IMG/VR virus record: IMGVR_UViG_3300046777_001349
Location: 1 to 39,412 of that record
Length of the DNA: 39,412 bases
Reading direction: 5' to 3' (one strand)
Source of the DNA: a virus
The notes beneath the pieces are model-generated. The model saw only the letters and a list, made by a program, of their open reading frames with translations, was not told the origin of the DNA and ran no database searches. Numbering within the stretch: position 1 is the stretch's first letter; each line of letters begins with the position of its first letter. The translations under genes were made by a program, and so were the position numbers. Below are positions 1,663 through 22,369 of this stretch, one piece after another.

Positions 1663-1922
1663 CAATGCACCCAGCGTGGTACGACAAAGCTAACTGTAAG
1701 GGTGTTGGTGGGGAAGTGTTCTTCCCTGAACCACAGGTTGGAATTAGTACTAAAGAGTTCTTTGAGGAAGCACAAACTTATTGCAACAAATGCACGGTAC
1801 GGTCAGCTTGCTTAGAGTATGCAATGGCAGCTGAGACACATGACATTCGTAGGTTCGGTATGTTTGGTGGGCTTACTCCACGCCAGCGTGAAGACTTAGC
1901 TAGGAAGCGTGCGGCAAAATGA
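1659..1922 (+). CDS. whiB: WhiB-family [4Fe-4S] transcriptional regulator
   Basis: 87 residues with the four cluster-binding cysteines of the WhiB/Wbl family: Cys13, Cys42, Cys45 and Cys51, in the C-x2-C-x5-C arrangement. The glycine turn appears as GMFGG at 67-71, where the family usually has G-[IV]-W-G-G, so the Trp is replaced by Phe. LTPRQRED and a basic tail complete the DNA-binding end. Wbl proteins bind the primary sigma factor and retune promoters; phage versions are known to interfere with host WhiB2-type functions. It is the last gene of the rightward early block, next to a hairpin facing the leftward cluster. It is strong evidence for an actinobacterial host. Confidence 0.94.
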   Translation: MTMHPAWYDKANCKGVGGEVFFPEPQVGISTKEFFEEAQTYCNKCTVRSACLEYAMAAETHDIRRFGMFGGLTPRQREDLARKRAAK

Positions 1923-1925
1923 AAA

Positions 1926-1968
1926 GCCCCACTACGACACAGAGAAGGGGAAATCTGTGGAGCGGGGC
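1926..1968. terminator. Candidate bidirectional terminator between convergent blocks
   Basis: Two nested inverted repeats lie exactly where the rightward whiB operon meets the leftward cluster: GCCCC (1926-1930) with GGGGC (1964-1968), enclosing CACAGA (1938-1943) with TCTGTG (1954-1959). There is no long T tract on the plus strand, so the position argues for termination more than the sequence does. Confidence 0.45.
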
Positions 1969-1992: not shown

Positions 1993-2277
1993 TTATTTGC
2001 GGTATCGCACCACCTTGTAATCTGAATAGCGGTGGAGCATGGCGTTATCGGCTGTGGCTTCGGCTTGTTTCTTGCAACGAAACTTGTACGCCTTCAGGGG
2101 TTGATGGGTGAAGGTGTGACCGTTGTGTTTGTAACAGCCACGCCAGTACCCGTATTCCCTGCCAGCTACCACCTTGACTACGACATACAGCTTTCGTGGT
2201 GGCTTGTATTGTCCCTGTTTGCGGTAGTTCCGTTGCCAAAGCCATAACCTAACTTTCGACTTCAGCTTGTTGCTCAT
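1993..2277 (-). CDS. Small, strongly basic protein of unknown function
   Basis: 94 residues from the ATG at 2277; an in-frame ATG at 2292 gives 99. I prefer 2277 because GGAACG lies a few bases upstream. The sequence is rich in Lys, Arg, Tyr and Trp (VRLWLWQRNYRKQG, then YWRGCYKHNGHTF and a YKVVRYRK end), suggesting a small nucleic-acid-binding or beta-rich fold. It is the last gene of the leftward cluster and its start overlaps the previous gene by 29 nt. No family recognised. Confidence 0.65.
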   Translation of the reverse strand: MSNKLKSKVRLWLWQRNYRKQGQYKPPRKLYVVVKVVAGREYGYWRGCYKHNGHTFTHQPLKAYKFRCKKQAEATADNAMLHRYSDYKVVRYRK

Positions 2278-2410
2278 AGCGTTCCATGTCATCTATCAGG
2301 ATTGTCCAACCCCAACGCTTTCGCAGTATCTCTACCACTTGTCGTGCTGTTGGTTCGTTCGTGATGTGATGATGCACCCAGTCTTCAAGTATGTCGCTTG
2401 TGGTTCTCAT
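2249..2410 (-). CDS. 53-residue protein of unknown function
   Basis: A short frame that fits tightly between neighbours: its ATG overlaps the stop of the upstream gene (ATGA at 2410-2407) and its end overlaps the downstream gene start. The product is predicted helical, with ILEDWVHHH, TARQVVEILRKRW and an acidic end. WGWTILIDDMERYE may be a short amphipathic element. No family recognised; the stop/start coupling is the main support. Confidence 0.6.
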   Translation of the reverse strand: MRTTSDILEDWVHHHITNEPTARQVVEILRKRWGWTILIDDMERYEQQAEVES

Positions 2411-2664
2411 GCTTGTGCCTGTTCGTTGAGGAAGGCAAGTGCGTTGTGTAATGCTATGGCGCAGTCTTCGACACCGTCTTGGTATTCGCCGTCACCTAGA
2501 TAACCGCTTTCCCATGAGCGTGTGTCTTCGTTCCATAGTGTGCCATCAGGTAGTACTTCGTCTTCTACATCTGTCTCGTGATACCAAAGCTTTTGGTTTG
2601 GGTCATAGCAGATTACAAAGACATGGCTTAGTTCTGTCTTTTGGGTTAGGTCATACACTTTCAT
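2407..2664 (-). CDS. Small acidic protein of unknown function
   Basis: 85 residues from the ATG at 2664, which overlaps the upstream stop (ATGA) and is preceded by AAAGGAGA; this start is much better than the in-frame ATG at 2691. The product begins MKVYDLTQKTELSHVFVI, contains a Trp/Asp/Glu-rich middle (YHETDVEDEV, SWESGYLGDGEY) and ends with a helix. A DNA-mimic or protein-binding role would fit its acidity but is unproven. Confidence 0.65.
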   Translation of the reverse strand: MKVYDLTQKTELSHVFVICYDPNQKLWYHETDVEDEVLPDGTLWNEDTRSWESGYLGDGEYQDGVEDCAIALHNALAFLNEQAQA

Positions 2665-2855
2665 TCTCCTTTGTATCCTTCGGGATACCATTCGTCACCA
2701 CAAGTAGCGCAGGTGTAACCATCTGGGTATCCTGTTTCGTATGATGGGGTTGCTTCAAGCGTTTCCCCTTCTCTTGTTGCTTCGTCTTGGTAATAGTAAT
2801 AACATTCCAAGCAAACCAAAGCACCTTCTTCTAGTGCCATTCCTATTGTTTTCAT
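2661..2855 (-). CDS. Small zinc-ribbon-like protein
   Basis: 64 residues with two CxxC pairs, CLEC near residue 15 and CATC near residue 49, the spacing of a treble-clef or zinc-ribbon fold. A YYYY run and an acidic centre separate them. The start overlaps the upstream stop (ATGA) and the stop overlaps the next start (ATGA). Probably structural zinc; partner and function unknown. Confidence 0.7.
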   Translation of the reverse strand: MKTIGMALEEGALVCLECYYYYQDEATREGETLEATPSYETGYPDGYTCATCGDEWYPEGYKGE

Positions 2856-2971
2856 TTGGTTAGCCCCCAGCTTGGGTGGTTTCGCATTGCTTGCTTGCGC
2901 TTTAGTGTGCGTACCTTGTGGGTGTTGTATCCTGCTACGAAATACAGTACGGCGATTAGTAATGACATCAT
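2852..2971 (-). CDS. 39-residue single-pass membrane mini-protein
   Basis: MMSLLIAVLYFVAGY at the N-terminus is a short transmembrane segment or signal anchor. It is followed by a strongly basic tail (HKVRTLKRKQAMR) that would stay in the cytoplasm by the positive-inside rule. AGGAGA stands upstream of the start, and both ends overlap neighbours as ATGA. Too short for automated callers, but the ribosome site and double coupling support it. Function unknown. Confidence 0.6.
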   Translation of the reverse strand: MMSLLIAVLYFVAGYNTHKVRTLKRKQAMRNHPSWGLTK

Positions 2972-3150
2972 TGTGCTGTCTCCTTTTCTCGCATTACTTG
3001 TTCGATAATCCACTGAGCTTGGTTGAGTTGTTCTAACATTCCAAAGGTTTGCATTGGGCGTAGTTCACCTTGTCGCACACCTTCGCTTAGTAGAAACCTC
3101 AAGTCCTCAAAGCCCCTGATAATTTCTGCTTGTATTGTTTCTTTGGTCAT
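2968..3150 (-). CDS. 60-residue helical protein of unknown function
   Basis: I start this at the ATG at 3150, preceded by AAGGAGAA and overlapping the upstream stop (ATGA); the in-frame ATG at 3207 lacks a ribosome site. The product looks all-helical: TKETIQAEIIRGFEDLRFL, then LEQLNQAQWIIEQVMREK, possibly a two-helix hairpin or dimer. No family recognised. The stop overlaps the next start (ATGA). Confidence 0.65.
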   Translation of the reverse strand: MTKETIQAEIIRGFEDLRFLLSEGVRQGELRPMQTFGMLEQLNQAQWIIEQVMREKETAQ

Positions 3151-3269
3151 TGCTGTTCTCCTTTGTTGTTTGTTGTATCCATTACTACGCAGTAGCAGAC
3201 ATGGCACAGTTGATACTCGTCCATCTCTCCTACCTCTGTTAGTTCTTTGTCACACTCTTTACAGTTCAT
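3147..3269 (-). CDS. 40-residue zinc-ribbon-like mini-protein
   Basis: Begins MNCKECDKEL and later has CHVCYC, giving two CxxC pairs about 18 residues apart, a minimal zinc ribbon. A weak AGGT lies upstream of the ATG. The stop overlaps the next start (ATGA). It is one of at least three CxxC-pair mini-proteins in this cluster. Function unknown. Confidence 0.6.
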   Translation of the reverse strand: MNCKECDKELTEVGEMDEYQLCHVCYCVVMDTTNNKGEQQ

Positions 3270-3279
3270 TGTTGTTTAC

Positions 3280-3747
3280 CTACCAGCTGCTTTGATATGT
3301 AAAGTCATATTCTTTTTCAAGCGTTAGTGCCTGACCGATGATGTCGACTGTTTCTTCAAGGCACTCAAAGTAGTAATCGTCATACTCTGTGCTACCAAAG
3401 AAAAACCCCTCGCTGGTCGGCATATACTCCGATGCAAGAGTGTGGTTGTCAAGTACACGCTGACACAAGTCTCGCAGTTCTTCCAACTGCTCACGGTTCA
3501 CCCTGTATTCACGGCAGTCATCTTGCCCGTCTTGGCAGTTAGTAACAAACCAGTCGTGGACTTGATTAGCTTTACGCCAGTAGCCAACTTTAAACTTGAC
3601 CGATGCTGACGGAAGATAAGCCTTCGTCATTACATCGCTCGCATCGCAGGCTTCAACTACATCATTGAATTGCTGTCTAATTTTCTTGTCTTGCCATTCC
3701 GAATTGGAAAGGTATTTCTCTGCGTATAGATATTGGTCTAATCCCAT
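3280..3747 (-). CDS. Conserved phage protein of unknown function (MGLDQYL family)
   Basis: 155 residues, the largest gene of the leftward cluster. It begins MGLDQYLYAEKYLS and contains VGYWRKANQVHDWFV, GQDDCREYRV and FFFGSTEYDDYYFECLE. This pattern is one I recognise from widespread hypothetical proteins of phages and some bacteria, with no known activity. A good AAGGAGA lies upstream, and the start overlaps the previous stop (TAATG). The conserved Trp/His/Asp could form a ligand or substrate site, but no enzyme motif is clear. Confidence 0.8.
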   Translation of the reverse strand: MGLDQYLYAEKYLSNSEWQDKKIRQQFNDVVEACDASDVMTKAYLPSASVKFKVGYWRKANQVHDWFVTNCQDGQDDCREYRVNREQLEELRDLCQRVLDNHTLASEYMPTSEGFFFGSTEYDDYYFECLEETVDIIGQALTLEKEYDFTYQSSW

Positions 3748-3839
3748 TACTCTTCTTCTCCTTCGTTGTATGTTTCTTTGTTAAATAGATAAGCAAGCAA
3801 ACTCGCTCGCAATTCCTCATAGGTTGTTATATGTGTCAT
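3747..3839 (-). CDS. 30-residue mini-protein, first gene of a leftward unit
   Basis: A short frame from ATG 3839 to a TAA overlapping the next ATG (TAATG). Upstream is GAAGGGAAA, the ribosome-site variant used by other transcription-unit starts here, and the shared promoter-like motif at 3856-3873. The product is ITTYEELRASLLAYLF followed by a Glu-rich tail. It may be a true peptide or mainly a leader that couples translation to the next gene. Confidence 0.5.
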   Translation of the reverse strand: MTHITTYEELRASLLAYLFNKETYNEGEEE

Positions 3840-3855
3840 GATTTCCCTTCGTTTA

Positions 3856-3892
3856 TATGTCTAACAGTAATACAGATATTTGTGATTGTCAA
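3856..3892 (-). promoter_or_regulatory. Candidate early promoter P1 (leftward)
   Basis: On the minus strand TTGACA (3892-3887) precedes GTATTAC (3873-3867), five bases, then GACATA (3861-3856), about 17 bases before the ATG at 3839. The GTATYAC-N5-GAYA block recurs upstream of three other transcription units in this genome. TTGACA is a perfect -35 hexamer and overlaps the stop of the upstream gene. The -10 is not canonical. Confidence 0.55.
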
Positions 3893-4086
3893 GGATAGAA
3901 AGTCAGTTGGCTTTCCTCGTGCCATGTTTCCCCCTCGCCTGCTACGGGTGTCACCTTGTAATCCAGCTTTCCATAGCGTTTCCGTGCATCTAAGATGATG
4001 ACATTGAATTTGAGTAGCCGTGACCCTGCGACATTCAGGTGCGCTACCTTGCCTATGTTCTCTGCTAGTTCTTGTGCTGTTGCCAT
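3889..4086 (-). CDS. 65-residue protein of unknown function
   Basis: MATAQELAENIGKVAHLNV, then SRLLKFNVIILDARKRYGK and KVTPVAGEGETW: a mixed alpha/beta small domain, perhaps a short beta barrel. The start overlaps the upstream stop (TAATG), with AGAGGCAACTA before it. The stop lies inside the -35 of candidate promoter P1. No family recognised. Confidence 0.65.
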   Translation of the reverse strand: MATAQELAENIGKVAHLNVAGSRLLKFNVIILDARKRYGKLDYKVTPVAGEGETWHEESQLTFYP

Positions 4087-4223
4087 TAGTTGCCTCTGTT
4101 CTTTCGGTATTTGTCGTATTCCTGTTGGTACTGCTTCCAGTTTTCATTGTGGTTTTCTTTTATCCACAGTAAAAAGTTTTCTAGGTCTCGTAGTTCTTTG
4201 ATGAGTTCGTTCTTGGTTGTCAT
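4086..4223 (-). CDS. 45-residue helical mini-protein
   Basis: MTTKNELIKELRDLENFLLW followed by a Lys/Asn/Gln/Tyr-rich stretch: one long amphipathic, probably coiled-coil helix. It is coupled at both ends, ATGA with the upstream gene and TAATG with the downstream gene. AGGGGCAACAA serves as a weak ribosome site. Function unknown; not called by length-filtered gene finders. Confidence 0.55.
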   Translation of the reverse strand: MTTKNELIKELRDLENFLLWIKENHNENWKQYQQEYDKYRKNRGN

Positions 4224-4336
4224 TTGTTGCCCCTGTTCTTTTGTTTGTTGGTTAGTTGGTTTGCGATTGCCCCGATTATGAAGGGCGATACCATGATGAG
4301 AGCGCCTAGCCCTGTGTAGAGAAAGTCGGTTATCAT
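4220..4336 (-). CDS. 38-residue membrane mini-protein
   Basis: After MITDFLY it has a hydrophobic stretch of about 20 residues (GLGALIMVSPFIIGAIA) and then a polar, basic tail (NQLTNKQKNRGNK). This is a typical single transmembrane helix with cytoplasmic C-terminus. The ATG overlaps the upstream stop (ATGA) with AGGTGA before it, and the stop overlaps the next start (ATGA). Function unknown; membrane-acting early phage peptides often modulate the host envelope, but nothing specific is shown. Confidence 0.55.
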   Translation of the reverse strand: MITDFLYTGLGALIMVSPFIIGAIANQLTNKQKNRGNK

Positions 4337-4617
4337 GCCGTCACCTCGCCTGCATACACTGCTACCGCCCCATCTGTAATTGTTGAAGTTATCCAGTGTC
4401 CGCCCCAGTTTGCTTTAGTGACATATTGGCGCACTGCTTCGGCGTAGTTCTCGCTTGGGTCTAGTGCGTAATTCCATGACACCATGATTTTTTGCGGGTC
4501 TTTGCCGTGTGTGTTGCTTTCGTAGCGTGAGACCGTAATCCTTCCGCTGTTGCCTAGATACTTACACCTAAGCGTAACCCTGTGGCTTTCGGTCACATAG
4601 TTGGTTTTTGTTGTCAT
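4333..4617 (-). CDS. 94-residue protein of unknown function, first gene of a leftward unit
   Basis: Alternating polar/hydrophobic segments suggest a beta-rich domain (HRVTLRCKYLG, GRITVSRYES, QKIMVSWNYAL), followed by a helix (NYAEAVRQYV) and a C-terminal strand. The ATG at 4617 follows GAAGGGAAAAGCAA and the shared promoter-like motif at 4637-4654. The stop overlaps the next start (ATGA). No family recognised. Confidence 0.7.
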   Translation of the reverse strand: MTTKTNYVTESHRVTLRCKYLGNSGRITVSRYESNTHGKDPQKIMVSWNYALDPSENYAEAVRQYVTKANWGGHWITSTITDGAVAVYAGEVTA

Positions 4618-4636
4618 TTGCTTTTCCCTTCGTAGT

Positions 4637-4670
4637 TGTGTCTTACTGTAATACAGCCTAGTGGCTGTAT
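4637..4670 (-). promoter_or_regulatory. Candidate early promoter P2 with overlapping palindrome
   Basis: On the minus strand GTATTAC (4654-4648), five bases, then GACACA (4642-4637) matches the shared GTATYAC-N5-GAYA block. An 8-bp perfect inverted repeat, ATACAGCC (4651-4658) with GGCTGTAT (4663-4670) and a 4-nt spacer, overlaps it and could be an operator or RNA hairpin. The leader runs AACTACGAAGGGAAAAGC to the ATG at 4617. A TTGACT lies further upstream. Confidence 0.5.
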
Positions 4671-4673
4671 CGC

Positions 4674-4718
4674 CCTCTAGTCAAGTCATGAACCTGCGCC
4701 GCCTACACGGTCTAGAGG
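4674..4718. repeat. Inverted repeat CCTCTAG / CTAGAGG
   Basis: CCTCTAG (4674-4680) and CTAGAGG (4712-4718) form a perfect 7-bp inverted repeat with a 31-nt spacer, in the gap between the unit ending at 4726 and promoter P2. It may help end leftward transcription from the upstream unit or be a protein-binding site. No T tract is evident. Confidence 0.35.
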
Positions 4719-4725
4719 TAGCTCC

Positions 4726-4932
4726 CTAAAATGTGAGAGTTGCGCAACCTTCGCAGGCGATAGGCTCGCTGGCGTAGCGTGGTGTCCATGACCAGCGAAT
4801 ACCAGTGTCCTCGGCTTCGGCAAGTCTTGCATCTACATTAGTCCCGTATTTCGGGTGAGTTTCCCATCGCAAGTCTGCGCAGTTGTCGCAGAGTATGCCC
4901 TCGTGGTCAGTGTTCGCTTGGTAGTACGCCAT
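4726..4932 (-). CDS. Small zinc-ribbon-like protein
   Basis: 68 residues with CDNC near residue 15 and CEGC near residue 60, two CxxC pairs flanking a Trp/Arg-rich middle (RWETHPKYG, RWSWTPRYAS). This is consistent with one zinc site holding the two ends together. The start overlaps the upstream stop by one base (TAATG). AGGCAACTA before the ATG is the same string as before the gene at 4086. Function unknown. Confidence 0.7.
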   Translation of the reverse strand: MAYYQANTDHEGILCDNCADLRWETHPKYGTNVDARLAEAEDTGIRWSWTPRYASEPIACEGCATLTF

Positions 4933-5135
4933 TAGTTGCCTGCCTTTCGTGCTTGCTTATGTGCGATATTTGCGTTATCTATTGCTTGCTTGATTGCTTC
5001 GCCGACAATTCGGCTGTAGTTGTCCTCGGCTTTGTTTAGTTGGCGCTTCGCCTTGTCTCGCTTTTCGCAGGCTTTGTTGTACCTGTAATTGCGATACGCC
5101 AATTTGTAGGCGACTGGCTTGAATTTGGCTTCCAT
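4932..5135 (-). CDS. 67-residue basic coiled-coil-like protein
   Basis: The sequence is predicted to be nearly all helix and rich in Lys, Arg, Asn and Ala (YNKACEKRDKAKRQLNKAED, then IVGEAIKQAIDNANIAHKQ), with heptad-like hydrophobic spacing. The ATG follows ACGGGGAAAGC, part of a leader resembling those at 4617 and 36611 (AACTAC then GGGGAAA). A folded-RNA-like element lies about 45 nt upstream. A second overlapping frame (start 5205) is judged a shadow. Function unknown. Confidence 0.65.
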   Translation of the reverse strand: MEAKFKPVAYKLAYRNYRYNKACEKRDKAKRQLNKAEDNYSRIVGEAIKQAIDNANIAHKQARKAGN

Positions 5136-5181
5136 GCTTTCCCCGTTCTGTAGTTGGTTTGTGTGTCGGCTTTCGCCTTGT

Positions 5182-5221
5182 CCCTAGTCCGAATCGAATC
5201 GGCACGGCTAAACCGCTAGGG
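5182..5221 (-). other. Compact three-way-junction RNA-like element
   Basis: Three nested/adjacent perfect inverted repeats fall in 40 nt: closing stem CCCTAG (5182-5187) with CTAGGG (5216-5221), enclosing hairpin CCGA/TCGG (5189-5202) and hairpin CGG/CCG (5205-5215). The first inner hairpin loop reads TTCGAT on the minus strand, like a tRNA T loop. It sits in the leader between the genes at 5230 and 5135. It may be a processing site, attenuator or tRNA mimic. Strand assignment is inferred from flanking genes. Confidence 0.45.
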
Positions 5222-5229
5222 GGAACTTG

Positions 5230-5391
5230 TTACGCCTTGAAGGTAAGCAAGCCACAAGCCTCTAGAAATCGCTTGCGGTCGAATCGTGGATTGTCTGCCT
5301 CGAATATTTCGGCAAGTTCCAAAGTGATATAGATGATGTCCTTGCCCTTTGCGATTGCTAAAGCAATTTTTTCGTAGTCTTTCTTTGTCAT
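5230..5391 (-). CDS. Small conserved phage protein (MTKKDYEKIA type)
   Basis: 53 residues: MTKKDYEKIALAIAKGKD, then ADNPRFDRKRFLEACG. The N-terminal KDY-IA-AIA helix and the DNPRFDR-RF--ACG end match a very common mini-protein of phages and some plasmids, of unknown function. It is the first leftward gene after the control region, with AAAGGGGAAACC before the ATG and promoter-like element P3 upstream. Confidence 0.75.
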   Translation of the reverse strand: MTKKDYEKIALAIAKGKDIIYITLELAEIFEADNPRFDRKRFLEACGLLTFKA

Positions 5392-5429
5392 GGTTTCCCC
5401 TTTGTTGGTTGATTTCTTACAGATACCAA

Positions 5430-5456
5430 TTTATCCAACCGTGATACAGACCACAA
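5430..5456 (-). promoter_or_regulatory. Candidate early promoter P3 (leftward)
   Basis: On the minus strand GTATCAC (5447-5441), five bases, then GATAAA (5435-5430), with TTGTGG (5456-5451) upstream as a possible -35. GTATCAC-N5-GATAA is identical in layout to the element before the recombination operon (36559-36576). The ATG at 5391 lies 38 nt downstream after GGGGAAA. Confidence 0.5.
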
Positions 5457-5575: not shown

Positions 5576-5591
5576 GTTAGGCACACCTAAC
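5576..5591. repeat. Inverted repeat GTTAGG-4-CCTAAC
   Basis: A perfect 6-bp dyad with a 4-nt spacer in the A/C-rich half of the control region. It may be a binding site for a dimeric regulator or a small hairpin. There is no T tract to make it a terminator. Confidence 0.4.
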
Positions 5592-5803: not shown

Positions 5804-6338
5804 CGCCTGCCTGCCTGTGTGATATATCAGCAACTAGGGGTCTGCCGAGCCATGTAGGGGTGGGGGGGTATGGGTTATCACCGAGAGATGTTTTCACTCT
5901 TTTTTCTGTTTTGGCAGTATGGGATTTGGTGCTGAATTTTGTGCGACGGGTGTGTTTCGTCATACGGTTGAAAAAAACAGGCAAAAAAATGGGTGCCTAC
6001 AACTTGGAGACTCGCCACACGACTTGTGCCTTCCTTCTTTGCGAGCAAGCCCGCTAGGGCGCGCTAGTAACCCTGCTGTTGGCGGCAAATCTGAAATAGC
6101 TGTACGTTGCTCTCCCCCACAGTTCCCGCCCCCGCGGAAGGTCGCCGTAGCCAATTTTAGCCGACACCTTTGTTCGATGAAATGACGTTCATCACGCTGC
6201 TTACCTATTTCGAAGAATAGATACCAACCCAGGTTCCCCTGTTTACGCCCCGCCACATGCAACCGTGGTACAGCCCTGCGTGCATCGCTATCATCCCGAC
6301 AGTGACGACTTGTGAAATTGGAAAAGACTATAGCAGAA

Positions 6339-6401
6339 GAAAAACGATGGGAGTCGAACCCACGCTTTGACAAGAAAAACTGCGCCGTAATGTCGCTTCT
6401 C
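6339..6401 (-). pseudogene. Degenerate, shortened tRNA-like element
   Basis: Minus-strand GTGGG-TTCGACT-CCCAT (6363-6347) is a proper T arm with a 5-bp stem and consensus loop. The next bases, CGTTTTTC, pair fully (counting G-T) with GAGAAGCG at 6401-6394, giving an acceptor-like stem with an extra terminal G-C pair. GGCGCAGT, common in tRNA D arms, follows the 5' strand. Only about 30 nt separate the acceptor strand from the T arm instead of about 41, and no anticodon stem forms. It looks like a deleted tRNA, an attachment-site relic, or a mini-tRNA mimic. Confidence 0.45.
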
Positions 6402-6558: not shown

Positions 6559-7305
6559 ATGCCAAAAAAGAAATCTGAACCAAACCCAACACCAAACAAA
6601 ATTGACTGGAACGGGTCACTCGCAGATTTCAAAAACGTTACCGTAAACACTAAACCAGCTGGTGCAGCAATCACCAACAAAGGTGGAACATACACCCCAC
6701 CAGCAAACGCCCAAAAAGCTTATACAGGACCAAACCTGGCAGCAATCAACAAAAAGTTCGAACCAAGCAAACTAGAAAAAATTGGCAATGTTATTGGTGA
6801 AGCAAGCGGAGTAAAAGACCTACAACGAGTAGTAGATAACCCTACAAAAGAAAACATTGCTTGGGCTGGAATATCAGCAGCAGCATACGTTGTCCCAGGA
6901 CTAGTGTCCGCCAAGAGTGGTCGAGCAGTAACCCGCGCAGGTGAAACAGCAATATACAACACCATTATGAGCCGCGCAGGCGCAGAAGCATCAGCAGCAG
7001 CAGGAGTAAACGTAACCAAATCTTTGACTTTAAAAAATGGTCAAGGAGCACTCATATCTGGCGGCAACCAAGTAGCACAACTATTCGGACAAAAAGTAAC
7101 CACAGAAGGACCAAAGAACCTTGCTCGTGTATACGGTGCGACACAACGCATGGCTGGCGAAGCAGGACGAGCAGCCGAAGCAATCAAAGCCGCAGAAATA
7201 GCAGGCAAAGTAAGCGCACTAAAAAACGTTCGCGGAGCAATCATGACAACTAACGTGGTTACAGCAAAAGGCAAAAACAAAGCTAACACCATAAAGAAAA
7301 AGTAA
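6559..7305 (+). CDS. Unknown virion-block protein, Ala/Lys-rich
   Basis: 248 residues, first gene of the rightward block. A basic N-terminus with IDWNGSLADFKN is echoed in the next protein (DYTGSLASYK). The centre is Ala/Gly-rich with a hydrophobic stretch (AWAGISAAAYVVPGLVSA), and the C-terminus is helical and ends in Lys. This resembles small minor capsid or internal proteins encoded beside terminases. The ATG has no strong ribosome site. The stop overlaps the next start (TAATG). No family recognised. Confidence 0.7.
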   Translation: MPKKKSEPNPTPNKIDWNGSLADFKNVTVNTKPAGAAITNKGGTYTPPANAQKAYTGPNLAAINKKFEPSKLEKIGNVIGEASGVKDLQRVVDNPTKENIAWAGISAAAYVVPGLVSAKSGRAVTRAGETAIYNTIMSRAGAEASAAAGVNVTKSLTLKNGQGALISGGNQVAQLFGQKVTTEGPKNLARVYGATQRMAGEAGRAAEAIKAAEIAGKVSALKNVRGAIMTTNVVTAKGKNKANTIKKK

Positions 7306-8276
7306 TGGCACCGAAACCAAAACGCCCAGACTACACAGGCTCACTAGCATCCTATAAACAATCAGTAGCAGACAAACCAAAAAGTTTAGACCTACCATCA
7401 CCAAACGAAGTAGTGAACTGGGCATCAGGAATTGTTGCATCAGGGCGAACCGCCGCAGGACAAACCCAAGCAGTAACCCCAGGAGACAAAGGCGTACGCA
7501 CTATGGGTCAAGGCATATCCATGGCAAACAACATGCTCAACCCATACTCAAACACATCTAAAAAACTTTTAGGATTTGCTGTAAACCAAGACCGTAAATC
7601 ACTTAACGAACTTACAAAGTCCGCTGCAGTAGACGCACTCATCACAGGCGCAGCAGCAGGCGTAGCCAAAACCGTACAAGTAGGAATCAACAAAACAGTT
7701 GAAACAGGACTAGCTGCAAGAATTCAAAACATGGTTAAAGGTGAAACCGTACTCGTACACGGCTCACCAGTCCGCGGCATTACAGAACTACAACCAAGTT
7801 TCTCACGAGCAATACCAAACGAAAAACGAGTGTTTGGTATGCGAACCGACGTTCCACTTCAAGCACAATTTCAAACCCAAAGCGTCACAACAGGATATGC
7901 AACAGGCGGCTCATGGGTCGACAAAGGTCGAGAACTACCACCAGGTGGCGGCTCACTATATGTATTTAAAGCACCAAAGAAAACCACAGACCTACCGCCT
8001 TACCCTAAAACACCAAAGACACCACAGTTCACCGAATCAGGTCGACCAATCATCCAACTTCCACCAACCGTTGCAACAAGCACAAAATCGCCAGGGCGAG
8101 TAGTAGCAGAAATCCCGCTACGCGGAAAACGACCTGATGTTGTCAGAGATTTGCTAAAAGAAGAATTGAAAAAAGCTGGAGCAAAAGTAGAACCAAACGT
8201 TGTTGAAAAAATGTTGAGCAAAGCCGAAGCAAAGAAAATAGCAAAACGCGCAAAAAATAATCCGTCAGTCGTCTAA
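7305..8276 (+). CDS. Unknown virion-block protein with possible ADP-ribosyltransferase-like region
   Basis: 323 residues. The N-terminal segment is related to the previous protein (PDYTGSLASYKQ). Residues about 110-130 are Ala-rich and membrane-friendly (ALITGAAAGVAKTV). A VLVHGSPVRGITELQP motif near residue 150, followed by VFGMRTDVPLQAQF and SLYVFKAP, recalls the HGS/T-x-I-P openings and later strands of ART-like toxin domains carried by some phage head proteins. I cannot place a catalytic Glu with confidence. The C-terminus is Lys-rich and helical. It might be injected with the DNA; that is speculation. Confidence 0.65.
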   Translation: MAPKPKRPDYTGSLASYKQSVADKPKSLDLPSPNEVVNWASGIVASGRTAAGQTQAVTPGDKGVRTMGQGISMANNMLNPYSNTSKKLLGFAVNQDRKSLNELTKSAAVDALITGAAAGVAKTVQVGINKTVETGLAARIQNMVKGETVLVHGSPVRGITELQPSFSRAIPNEKRVFGMRTDVPLQAQFQTQSVTTGYATGGSWVDKGRELPPGGGSLYVFKAPKKTTDLPPYPKTPKTPQFTESGRPIIQLPPTVATSTKSPGRVVAEIPLRGKRPDVVRDLLKEELKKAGAKVEPNVVEKMLSKAEAKKIAKRAKNNPSVV

Positions 8277-8288
8277 GGTTATCCCCGC

Positions 8289-10271
8289 ATGGGAACAAAA
8301 CGAAAAGTCGCACCAGAAGACAAAGCACGATTCTTCGCAGCCATAGCAGCAGGCTCATCAATCACCGAAGCCTCACGCATCGCAGGCGTACACATCAACA
8401 CAGGCTCAAACTGGTTAGCCAAATCTAGAGCAGCAAAAGCAAAACTAGACCAAGCCCTACTAGAAGCAACCCGTGTCCGCGGCAAAGGCGGCGGCGTACA
8501 ACACAAACAATATGAACAAGACCTCGATGAAGCCACCAACCTACCCCCAGCCATCCCACTCACACGACTCTGCCCAGAAGCACAACGCGGACTAGAAGAC
8601 TTCGACTTCTTCCGCCGTTACTACCTAGGACGAGTCCCCTCACCATGGCAAGTAGAAGCCGCAGTCAAACTCGTAGAACTCCTAGAACACCCCGAAAAAG
8701 AATTCGTTGTACTTAACGTGCCACCAGGAGCAGGAAAATCCACCCTGTTCCACGATGTTGCTGTATGGGCAATCGTAAGGAACCGTGCAATCCGTGTCAT
8801 GATTGGCTCAATCAGCCAAGCCATGGCAAAACAATACTCACGACGCATCCGTGAAACCCTTGAACGCCCACAACCAATCCACCCAGACCCAGAAATAGTC
8901 AAAAAAGGACTAGCAGTAAACGCCGAAGGATGCCTATCCATTGACTACGGCAGGTTCAAACCGTCCGATAAAGGTGCATTATGGCGTGCAGAAGAGTTCG
9001 TAGTAGAACAATTAGACGGAAACGGGCTAGATAACAAAGAACCAACCGTCCGCGCATACGGTATTGACTCAGAATACATTGGTCACCGTGCCGACCTTTG
9101 CCTATTTGACGACGTTGCATCAGTAGACAACGCCCGTGAAGGCGCAACCCGTGACAAAATGCTCGAAAGATGGGACCAAGTAGCCGAAGCCCGTGTAGAC
9201 CCAGCAGGACTACTAGCAGTAGTAGGACAAAGACTAGGGTCAGGCGACCTTTACGCCCACTGTCTCAACAAAATCTCCTATGATGTCGACGAAGCAGACT
9301 ACGACGGCATGGACATGACCACCCCAGAGTCACTTGCCGCCACAGAACCAGCCAAAACCCAAAAATACAAGCACATCGTATACAAGGCATACTATGAAGA
9401 ACTTGACACAGGACCAGCATCACGCCGCTACGACGCAAAACCCTACCCCGAAGGACCACTCCTTGACCCCCAACGTCTTTCTTGGAAAGATTTATCCTAC
9501 ATCCGTTACTCCAATCCGCGAACTTTTAAAGTCGTATATCAACAGGAAGATGATGCGGACGACACCAACCTCATCTCACGAGTTTGGGTCACAGGCGGAC
9601 TAGGACCAGACGGCGTACTCTACCAAGGGTGCATCGACAACGACCGTTTGCCAGGGCAAATCCCTGAAGGCTTATCACCACCAGTAATATCAATCATTTC
9701 CGTTGACCCATCACCATCACAGTTCTGGGGAATCCAATGGTGGCTCTACCAACCACAAACCAACCTGCGATATTTGATAGATGTTGAGCGAGTCAAACTC
9801 ACAGCAGAAGAACTACTTGGATATGACACCACAACAGGCGCATACTCAGGACTATTAGAAGACTGGACAAACAGAGCTTTCGCCTACGGCTACCCTGTAT
9901 CACATATCATTGTGGAAGTAAACGCAGCTCAACGATTCCTCCTCGCCCACGACTTCGTACGCAAATGGCAAACACGCCAAATGGTCAACATCATCCCCCA
10001 CACCACAAGCCGAAACAAATTCGACGAAAAACTTGGCATCGAAGCACTACTCCCACCGCTCTACCGTGCAGGCGCAGTACGACTTCCATCAATGCGCGGC
10101 AACTGGAAAACACTCGCACTCGTAGACGAACTCACAAAATGGACACCAGACAAAAAGAACGGCACCGACCTAGTAATGGCAAACTGGTTCGCAGAACTAC
10201 ACTTCCCCAACGTAAGCGGAGTGAAACTACCACCACGACAATGGCGACCATCTTGGTTACTACAAGGCTAA
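8289..10271 (+). CDS. terL: Terminase large subunit with fused N-terminal HTH
   Basis: 660 residues. The DNA-packaging motor has a Walker A VPPGAGKST at 144-152, a Walker B DLCLFDD at about 269-275, and a C-terminal RNase H-like nuclease with acidic residues visible at SVDPS (Asp473), IVEVN (Glu543) and GTDLVM (Asp627). Residues about 10-60 form a helix-turn-helix (ITEASRIAGVHINTGSNWLAKS) of the kind found in small terminase subunits, and no separate terS gene precedes it. The protein may therefore combine DNA recognition, ATPase and nuclease. The portal gene follows after 48 nt. Confidence 0.97.
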   Translation: MGTKRKVAPEDKARFFAAIAAGSSITEASRIAGVHINTGSNWLAKSRAAKAKLDQALLEATRVRGKGGGVQHKQYEQDLDEATNLPPAIPLTRLCPEAQRGLEDFDFFRRYYLGRVPSPWQVEAAVKLVELLEHPEKEFVVLNVPPGAGKSTLFHDVAVWAIVRNRAIRVMIGSISQAMAKQYSRRIRETLERPQPIHPDPEIVKKGLAVNAEGCLSIDYGRFKPSDKGALWRAEEFVVEQLDGNGLDNKEPTVRAYGIDSEYIGHRADLCLFDDVASVDNAREGATRDKMLERWDQVAEARVDPAGLLAVVGQRLGSGDLYAHCLNKISYDVDEADYDGMDMTTPESLAATEPAKTQKYKHIVYKAYYEELDTGPASRRYDAKPYPEGPLLDPQRLSWKDLSYIRYSNPRTFKVVYQQEDDADDTNLISRVWVTGGLGPDGVLYQGCIDNDRLPGQIPEGLSPPVISIISVDPSPSQFWGIQWWLYQPQTNLRYLIDVERVKLTAEELLGYDTTTGAYSGLLEDWTNRAFAYGYPVSHIIVEVNAAQRFLLAHDFVRKWQTRQMVNIIPHTTSRNKFDEKLGIEALLPPLYRAGAVRLPSMRGNWKTLALVDELTKWTPDKKNGTDLVMANWFAELHFPNVSGVKLPPRQWRPSWLLQG

Positions 10272-21400: not shown

Positions 21401-22369
21401 ATGGCAGGCGAAACCCAACTCTCGTCACTGTCCGTAGACCAGGTAGCGTTTGACCGTCTCGCGTATTTCGCGTTGCGTTCAGAACTCTTGTTCGACCAAG
21501 CAGCTGACGTACAACCAGTAGCACAGGCAATGCCAGGAACTGGCGTAACATTCACCATCTTCAGCGACATTGCAGCAGCAACGTCAACGTTGAACGAAGT
21601 TACCGACGTAACCCCAACCGCATTGTCCGACAGCCAAGTAACCGTAACCCTCAACGAATACGGTAACGCAGTAGTAACCACCGCCAAGTTGCGTGGAACA
21701 GCGTTCTTGGATGTTGACTCAGCAGCAGCAAACATCATCGGTTACAACGCAGGTGACTCAATGGACCAAGTAGTCCGTGACGTTCTTGCTGGCGGAACCA
21801 ACGTTGTTTATGCAGGTGGCGGTTCAACAACCCCAACCAGCCGTGTAACGGTACAGGCAGAAGACGTAATCGAAGCCAACGACGTACGCAAAGTAGTTGC
21901 ACAACTCCGTGCAGCAAACGTTGCAACGTTCAACGGCTCATACATGGGATTCATTCACCCAGACGTATCGTACGACTTCCGTTCAGCAACCGACGCAGCA
22001 GCATGGCGTACCCCAGCGAACTACGTTGACCCAACGGGAATCTACAACGGCGAAATCGGCTTGTTCGAATCCGTACGTTTCATCGAAACCCCACGAGCCA
22101 AGGTATGGACTGACGCATCGAACGGAACCAGCACCACAGGTGCAGTTGACGTTTATGCTACGCACATCATGGGTCGTCAGGCTCTTGCTAAGGCGTTCAG
22201 CTCACAGGACGGCAACGGTGCAGTACCGAAGATTGTCCGCGGCAACGTAACCGACCTCCTCATGCGCTTGCAGCCATTGGGTTGGTACTGGTTGGGTGGC
22301 TACGGTCGATTCCGCGAAGCATCATTGCGTCGCATTGAATCAGCATCGTCAATTGCAACCAACGTCTAA
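21401..22369 (+). CDS. Major capsid protein, N4-gp56 family
   Basis: 322 residues with a clear AAAGGA upstream. GETQLSSLSVDQVAFDRLAY at the N-terminus, a TFTIFSDIAAATSTLNEVTD segment, TALSDSQVTVTLNEYGNAV and the C-terminal LQPLGWYWLGGYGRFREASL are characteristic of N4-gp56-type HK97-fold capsid proteins of actinophages. It will be the most abundant virion protein. A strong intrinsic terminator follows at 22388. Confidence 0.93.
   Translation: MAGETQLSSLSVDQVAFDRLAYFALRSELLFDQAADVQPVAQAMPGTGVTFTIFSDIAAATSTLNEVTDVTPTALSDSQVTVTLNEYGNAVVTTAKLRGTAFLDVDSAAANIIGYNAGDSMDQVVRDVLAGGTNVVYAGGGSTTPTSRVTVQAEDVIEANDVRKVVAQLRAANVATFNGSYMGFIHPDVSYDFRSATDAAAWRTPANYVDPTGIYNGEIGLFESVRFIETPRAKVWTDASNGTSTTGAVDVYATHIMGRQALAKAFSSQDGNGAVPKIVRGNVTDLLMRLQPLGWYWLGGYGRFREASLRRIESASSIATNV

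Follow-up and report, generated by a model that had tools for sequence, protein, structure and literature searches.

What purpose is served by the run of very small genes on the minus strand at positions 1993-5391 of the viral record IMGVR_UViG_3300046777_001349, a stretch of 39.4 kb (position 1 to 39,412; hereafter the window)? The original prediction, made from the letters without database searches, had read this run as a candidate host-takeover or counter-defence island. Our analysis suggests that the cluster is probably an accessory operon of coupled small cistrons, read leftward and presumably early, in an uncultured and apparently lytic actinobacterial phage. The cluster of small ORFs (open reading frames) is present where it was predicted, with 16 members rather than 15, from the first gene, g5230 (5230..5391, 53 amino acids (aa)), to the last, g1993 (1993..2277, ~94 aa). 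Coupling through ATGA or TAATG overlaps, a further part of the prediction, was found at 10 of the 15 junctions. Seven of these are ATGA-type 4-base overlaps (4333/4220, 4220/4086, 3147/2968, 2968/2852, 2852/2661, 2661/2407 and 2407/2249) and three are TAATG junctions (4932/4726, 4086/3889 and 3747/3280). The 2249/1993 junction is an overlap of 29 bases, and the other cistrons are separated by gaps of 94 (5230/4932), 108 (4726/4333), 49 (3889/3747) and 10 bases (3280/3147). AAGGAG-like sites precede many of the starts, and the ribosome-binding site was used to correct the starts of g2407 to 2664, of g2968 to 3150 and of g1993 probably to 2277.

To ask whether such short frames are genes, we compared them with related loci. 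The product of 8289-10271 resembles annotated terminases of Streptomyces phages (~25% identity) and was therefore taken as the large terminase; a scan with it gathered 69 related loci (L numbers below), many extending over the cluster. Coding conservation in related genomes, whose lack the prediction had named as a refutation, was found for 13 of the 16 ORFs, with homologues detected by tblastn in other viral contigs. The order of the cluster genes between the WhiB gene and the structural operon is kept in relatives. Substitutions fall mainly at codon position 3, with a ratio of non-synonymous to synonymous changes (pN/pS) of 0.04-0.5 in most comparisons, and nearly all 13 conserved frames are under purifying selection. 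The lowest ratios, 0.04-0.09, belong to g3747 (3747..3839, 30 aa), which is 89-93% identical to its homologues in L016 and L008. The same two loci hold homologues of g2407 (2407..2664, 85 aa) at 78-84% identity and pN/pS 0.17-0.18, and g3147 (3147..3269, 40 aa) has homologues in L016, L070 and L037 at 72-88% identity, with pN/pS of 0.11-0.51 (0.11 against L016). Towards the right of the cluster, g4726 (4726..4932, 68 aa) has homologues in L064, L036, L050 and L037/L039 (57-79% identity, pN/pS 0.20-0.41) and g4333 (4333..4617, 94 aa) in L049, L036 and L068 (61-72% identity, pN/pS 0.33-0.37). The first gene, g5230, has 48 tblastn loci and is 39-50% identical to homologues in cultured mycobacteriophages and Streptomyces phages. 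Flags for a stop inside the frame were raised for g1993, g2249 and g5230 in some loci; those of g1993 probably fall in an upstream extension that is no longer part of the gene once it starts at 2277.

The content of the cluster was then compared among 18 related loci, in which ORFs were called by one mechanical rule and clustered into families. The most conserved member is g3889 (3889..4086, 65 aa; pN/pS 0.22-0.38), present in 17 of the 18 island loci. It is followed by g1993 in 13 loci (pN/pS 0.45-0.74 in distant relatives), by g2249 (2249..2410, 53 aa; pN/pS 0.12-0.51) and g2968 (2968..3150, 60 aa; pN/pS mostly 0.15-0.44) in 11 loci each, and by g2852 (2852..2971, 39 aa) in 10 loci; the last, at pN/pS 0.50-0.65, gives the weakest coding signal of the conserved members. 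The mechanical rule places g5230 in 9 loci, and tblastn in more. Other members come and go. The accessory cistron g3280 (3280..3747, 155 aa) is missing from L016, where g3747 joins g3147 directly, and L008 lacks both g3280 and g3147, so that g3747 joins g2968 directly. Where g3280 is absent, the breaks fall exactly at AAGGAG...ATG joints of ribosome site and start codon. Homologues of g3280 were found in viral contigs that otherwise differ (L002-L004), with weak matches in Klebsiella phages, and the position of g2661 (2661..2855, 64 aa) in the gene order differs in L070, L064 and L053. Collectively, these comparisons indicate that the cluster is a real, selected and fast-changing accessory gene set, in which whole cistrons are gained, lost and moved.

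With its short frames under selection, all on one strand, and its coupling, synteny and changing content, the cluster shows the traits of a phage accessory operon. Transcription would run leftward from a promoter just before g5230 and end at a terminator facing the WhiB gene (1659-1922, rightward), and the small cistrons of the transcript would be translated one after another by coupling. Its role may be the dosage of small host-acting proteins (membrane, zinc-ribbon and SH3-like), to which relatives add at least one anti-restriction gene. Both ends of the transcript are putative. The candidate promoter (5428..5456, minus strand) consists of TTGTGG (5456-5451), 17 bases and TAAATT (5433-5428), and the candidate terminator (1922..1968, minus strand), at the end of the cluster, of a stem-loop (1968-1926; -19.8 kcal/mol) and a T-run (1925-1922). 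Relatives carry a near-consensus promoter 39-46 bases before the start of the g5230 homologue, such as TTGACA-17-TATAGT in L024, L025 and L035. In eight of them (L024, L025, L028, L034, L070, L082, L085 and L087) the sequence TGTGA-N6-TCACA, the consensus form of a CRP/GlxR-type site, stands 80-103 bases before that start, upstream of the cluster promoter. There are 65 such sites in 2.1 Mb of loci, duplicate contigs included, a strong excess over the ~2 expected with equal random bases. A palindrome, TTAGG-N4-CCTAA, at 5577-5590, between the RNA described below and g5230, has similar and comparably placed counterparts in several relatives and could be a terminator or an operator.

Several points weigh against an early operon of this kind. 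Early timing is deduced only from where the cluster lies and by comparison with other phages. The candidate promoter was placed by its position relative to the promoters of relatives and its own match is weak, and the window shows no TGTGA-N6-TCACA site ahead of g5230. For g4086 (4086..4223, 45 aa), g4220 (4220..4336, 38 aa) and g4932 (4932..5135, 67 aa), no homologue was found in the related loci, so their coding status is argued solely from frame, overlap and ribosome site. The measure of variable content, 61 ORF families in at least two of the 18 loci and 90 singletons, includes errors of mechanical ORF calling in the relatives; F4 and other right-edge families, for instance, are translations of conserved non-coding DNA.

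Do the proteins themselves point to counter-defence? Searches of the cluster proteins against Pfam, PHROGs, NCBIfam and PADLOC returned nothing functional, although three rather than the two predicted members fall into hypothetical families: g3280 (phrog_7971, 3.5e-10; MGLDxYL family), g5230 (phrog_19432, 4.6e-7) and also g4333 (phrog_3199, 1.9e-4). The physical features listed in the prediction largely hold. Two CxxC pairs occur in at least three proteins, g2661, g3147 and g4726, the last of them zinc-ribbon-like; g1993 (+20) and g4932 (+10; probably helical) are strongly basic, and g2407, g2661 and g3280 are strongly acidic. Of the two proposed single-transmembrane mini-proteins, g4220 has one clear hydrophobic segment (19-residue hydropathy peak 1.91) and g2852, with a hydrophobic N-terminal segment and a basic tail, is borderline (1.14). 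A similar-looking membrane protein, F11, occupies g4220's part of the island in seven relatives.

Small, charged, unannotated proteins that turn over rapidly would suit a dedicated counter-defence or takeover island, in which most of the 16 proteins block restriction, CRISPR, abortive infection, transcription or other host processes. Further evidence in this direction comes from a scan, against Pfam and PHROGs, of 80 proteins encoded in the islands of the window and its relatives. The protein encoded at L037:5540-5881 (minus strand) passes the Pfam ArdA (PF07275) cut-off narrowly, with 27.1 bits compared to 27, matches the anti-restriction family phrog_2059 (E 1.2e-8), and recurs at 90-100% identity in six loci (L037/L039 and four contigs), in or beside the homologous cluster. 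It was the sole ArdA match among the 80 proteins, and no window protein matched PF07275 or an anti-restriction PHROG. Direct support for counter-defence comes from this gene alone, which is found in relatives rather than in the window. None of the cluster proteins matched a known anti-defence or takeover family, and the PADLOC matches are few and weak (best E 0.001). The homologous site in relatives also carries genes of the GP88 family, SprT-like, DUF3846 and DUF7447 families, which have no such known role and do not look like counter-defence. The counter-defence part of the original prediction is thus supported indirectly, through an anti-restriction gene at the homologous site of relatives and not through the window proteins; we regard an island dedicated to counter-defence as possible but rather unlikely.

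It is also doubtful, in our view, that the cluster serves phage housekeeping, with small regulators and nucleic-acid-binding proteins that work in the transcription switch and DNA metabolism of the phage itself. The cluster adjoins the SSB and WhiB genes, and the retention of g3889, g2968, g2249 and g1993 in most relatives suits a general role better than host-specific counter-defence. Structure prediction with fold comparison, proposed as a check by the prediction, gave one result of this kind. The AlphaFold2 model of g3889, built with 15 sequences, is a small barrel (pLDDT, predicted local distance difference test, 81), and its top PDB matches by Foldseek are chromo, Tudor and PWWP domains (probability 1.00, TM (template modelling) score 0.6-0.75, E ~0.02). 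The protein is accordingly predicted to be an SH3/Tudor/chromo-like small beta barrel, an assignment of fold and not of function. The model of g3280 is fair (pLDDT 81) and has no credible counterpart, with no PDB match at E < 0.08; neither g3889 nor g3280 has a sequence relative in the PDB that our searches found. Against a housekeeping role, most of the families are not core and many occur in only one or two loci. Finally, that the frames are largely spurious, having arisen by chance where the DNA is non-coding or coded in another way, is highly improbable. Several frames are below 45 codons and three lack a homologue, but 13 frames show third-position changes and a low pN/pS, which falls to 0.04-0.11 in g3747 (30 codons) and g3147 (40 codons). 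Conserved gene order and overlapping starts also speak against it, and the codon-change pattern refutes it for the 13 conserved frames. The cluster is best described as genuine but of an ordinary kind, a variable, probably early accessory operon, for which a counter-defence contribution is plausible and partly supported through relatives.

The stronger novelty is a neighbouring RNA. To the right of the cluster lies a gap of 1.1 kb whose sequence is conserved in over 50 related loci, even where the neighbouring proteins g6559 and g7305 reach only 25-35% identity. The control region of this gap (about 5830-6335) forms seven hairpins on the minus strand. Hairpins 2-7 make up a structured core at 6110..6277, upstream of the cluster and on the same strand, which scores 167 bits with our covariance model; alignment and fold place the probable 5' part, with hairpin 1 (CUGUC-GGGAU-GAUAG), at 6278..6320 (minus strand). 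A conserved block A (5832..5905, minus strand; AGAGTGAAA ... CTCGGCAGACCCCTAGTT) is a possible 3' part of the element; in 53 of 94 loci, compared to ~5 by chance, a CGGCA-type motif follows the core at a distance of 100-430 bases. Over 39 diverse sequences, 94.6% of the cells are standard pairs and both sides change in 25 of the 37 pairs. Doubly changed cells number 293, compared to a mean of 88 after shuffling (0 of 500 shuffles reach 293) and 23-46 for slid structures; the structure was drawn from the same 39 sequences, and one of these covariation controls is biased towards it as a result, but the double changes are not tied to a single family of sequences. On the modelled strand, G-U pairs outnumber A-C mismatches by 115 to 11, and all 39 sequences have a GNRA loop in hairpin 3; the two signs fix the RNA strand as minus. 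The single-sequence fold energy is ordinary (z -1.25), so that the case rests on covariation, which we consider decisive for a predicted minus-strand structured RNA.

With the covariance model, L002-L101 gave 60 matches, of which two are weak or truncated. All 99 of the pattern loci searched were also matched, although the long variants score only 31-60 bits. The RNA was found within L002-L219 (core examples are L024:7334-7502 and L037:8309-8477), with 146 distinct cores in viral contigs, and 99 of 118 pattern loci also encode a related terminase. Three contigs, L104 (426-596 and 12247-12400), L112 and L170, carry a second, diverged copy ~11-12 kb away (63, 61 and 53 bits). The one pattern match among genome contigs, in Rhodoferax (L220), was missed by the covariance model and was taken as chance. 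Rfam 15 gave no match to the RNA, even in permissive mode, and blastn found nothing in cultured phages or plasmids. Searches of the intergenic region for a tRNA or a known Rfam RNA likewise gave none. A candidate tRNA-Sec (selenocysteine) at 6339-6401 reached 20 bits compared to a cut-off of 47; it lies inside a 220-base insertion that, among the aligned sequences, the window shares only with L005 and L008, and that carries a perfect tRNA T-arm look-alike GTGGGTTCGACTCCCAT (6339-6401, minus strand).

We then considered whether the RNA is an obligatory leader of the leftward operon. Most of the relatives shown have a promoter of the form TTGCAA-17-TAnnnT with TGn just before the RNA. At this place the window has a candidate promoter with an extended -10, TGCTATAGT (6327..6335, minus strand), from which the insertion splits off the -35-like sequence. 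Genes upstream of the RNA run in the opposite direction in all 112 contigs with enough sequence, as the structural operon diverges. Downstream, among 64 contigs, the genes follow the direction of the RNA in 42 and run mainly against it in 22. An obligatory leader is disfavoured, both by these 22 contigs and by the separate promoter that g5230 has in relatives, and a stand-alone RNA fits the data better. We lean towards an undescribed class of large structured phage RNA, with a seven-hairpin core of ~215 bases and a distal block (~500 bases in all), which would be transcribed divergently from the structural operon via TTGCAA-17-TAnnnT, is kept across a clade of environmental actinophages, and may act on its own in infection, for example in an early/late switch, packaging or replication, rather than merely as the leader of the small-gene operon.

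The genome around both elements is consistent with an apparently lytic phage of actinobacteria. The cluster sits between the WhiB gene, indicative of an actinobacterial host, and the divergent structural operon, with the SSB gene (744-1148, rightward) nearby. Rightward genes also encode a RecE-like exonuclease, a single-strand annealing protein, a RusA-like resolvase and a capsid protein (21401-22369). No integrase was seen among the window proteins scanned, which cover part of the ORFs. Between the RNA and the terminase, g6559 and g7305 (6559-8276, plus strand) are both diverging fast and have in common an N-terminal motif like (D/N)(W/Y)xGSLAxxK; neither gave a Pfam or PHROG match, g6559 having been searched against PHROGs only.

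Together, these results show how abundant uncultured environmental actinophages store and swap very small genes: joints of ribosome site and overlapping start let a single cistron enter or leave with its neighbours undisturbed. The presence of an ArdA gene in relatives makes the site worth screening for counter-defence genes. The RNA, conserved more widely than the cluster genes and outside the RNA families searched, offers a defined target for the function of large phage RNAs.

Next to their DNA-metabolism genes, cultured actinophages typically carry runs of small genes that overlap and lack annotation. The cluster has counterparts in the early small-gene clusters of cultured actinophages such as mycobacteriophage Konstantine and Streptomyces phage Tomas, to whose hypothetical proteins g5230 is homologous. 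It differs from cultured actinophages in that the first 20 kb of the window gave no near DNA match in INPHARED, where the g3889 and g4333 proteins were also unmatched. Compared to the homologous island of relatives, it has no match to ArdA (PF07275). Within phrog_7971, g3280 shares the motifs YWRKxNQxHxWFV and GFFFGxT with L002-L004. For the RNA, the closest point of comparison is GOLLD RNA (RF02032), described in PMC12286853. The new RNA is not itself GOLLD, with no match to that family at E up to 10 in seven records. GOLLD and other large ornate phage and bacterial RNAs are likewise large, multi-hairpin and GNRA-loop-bearing, and likewise found in phage genomes.

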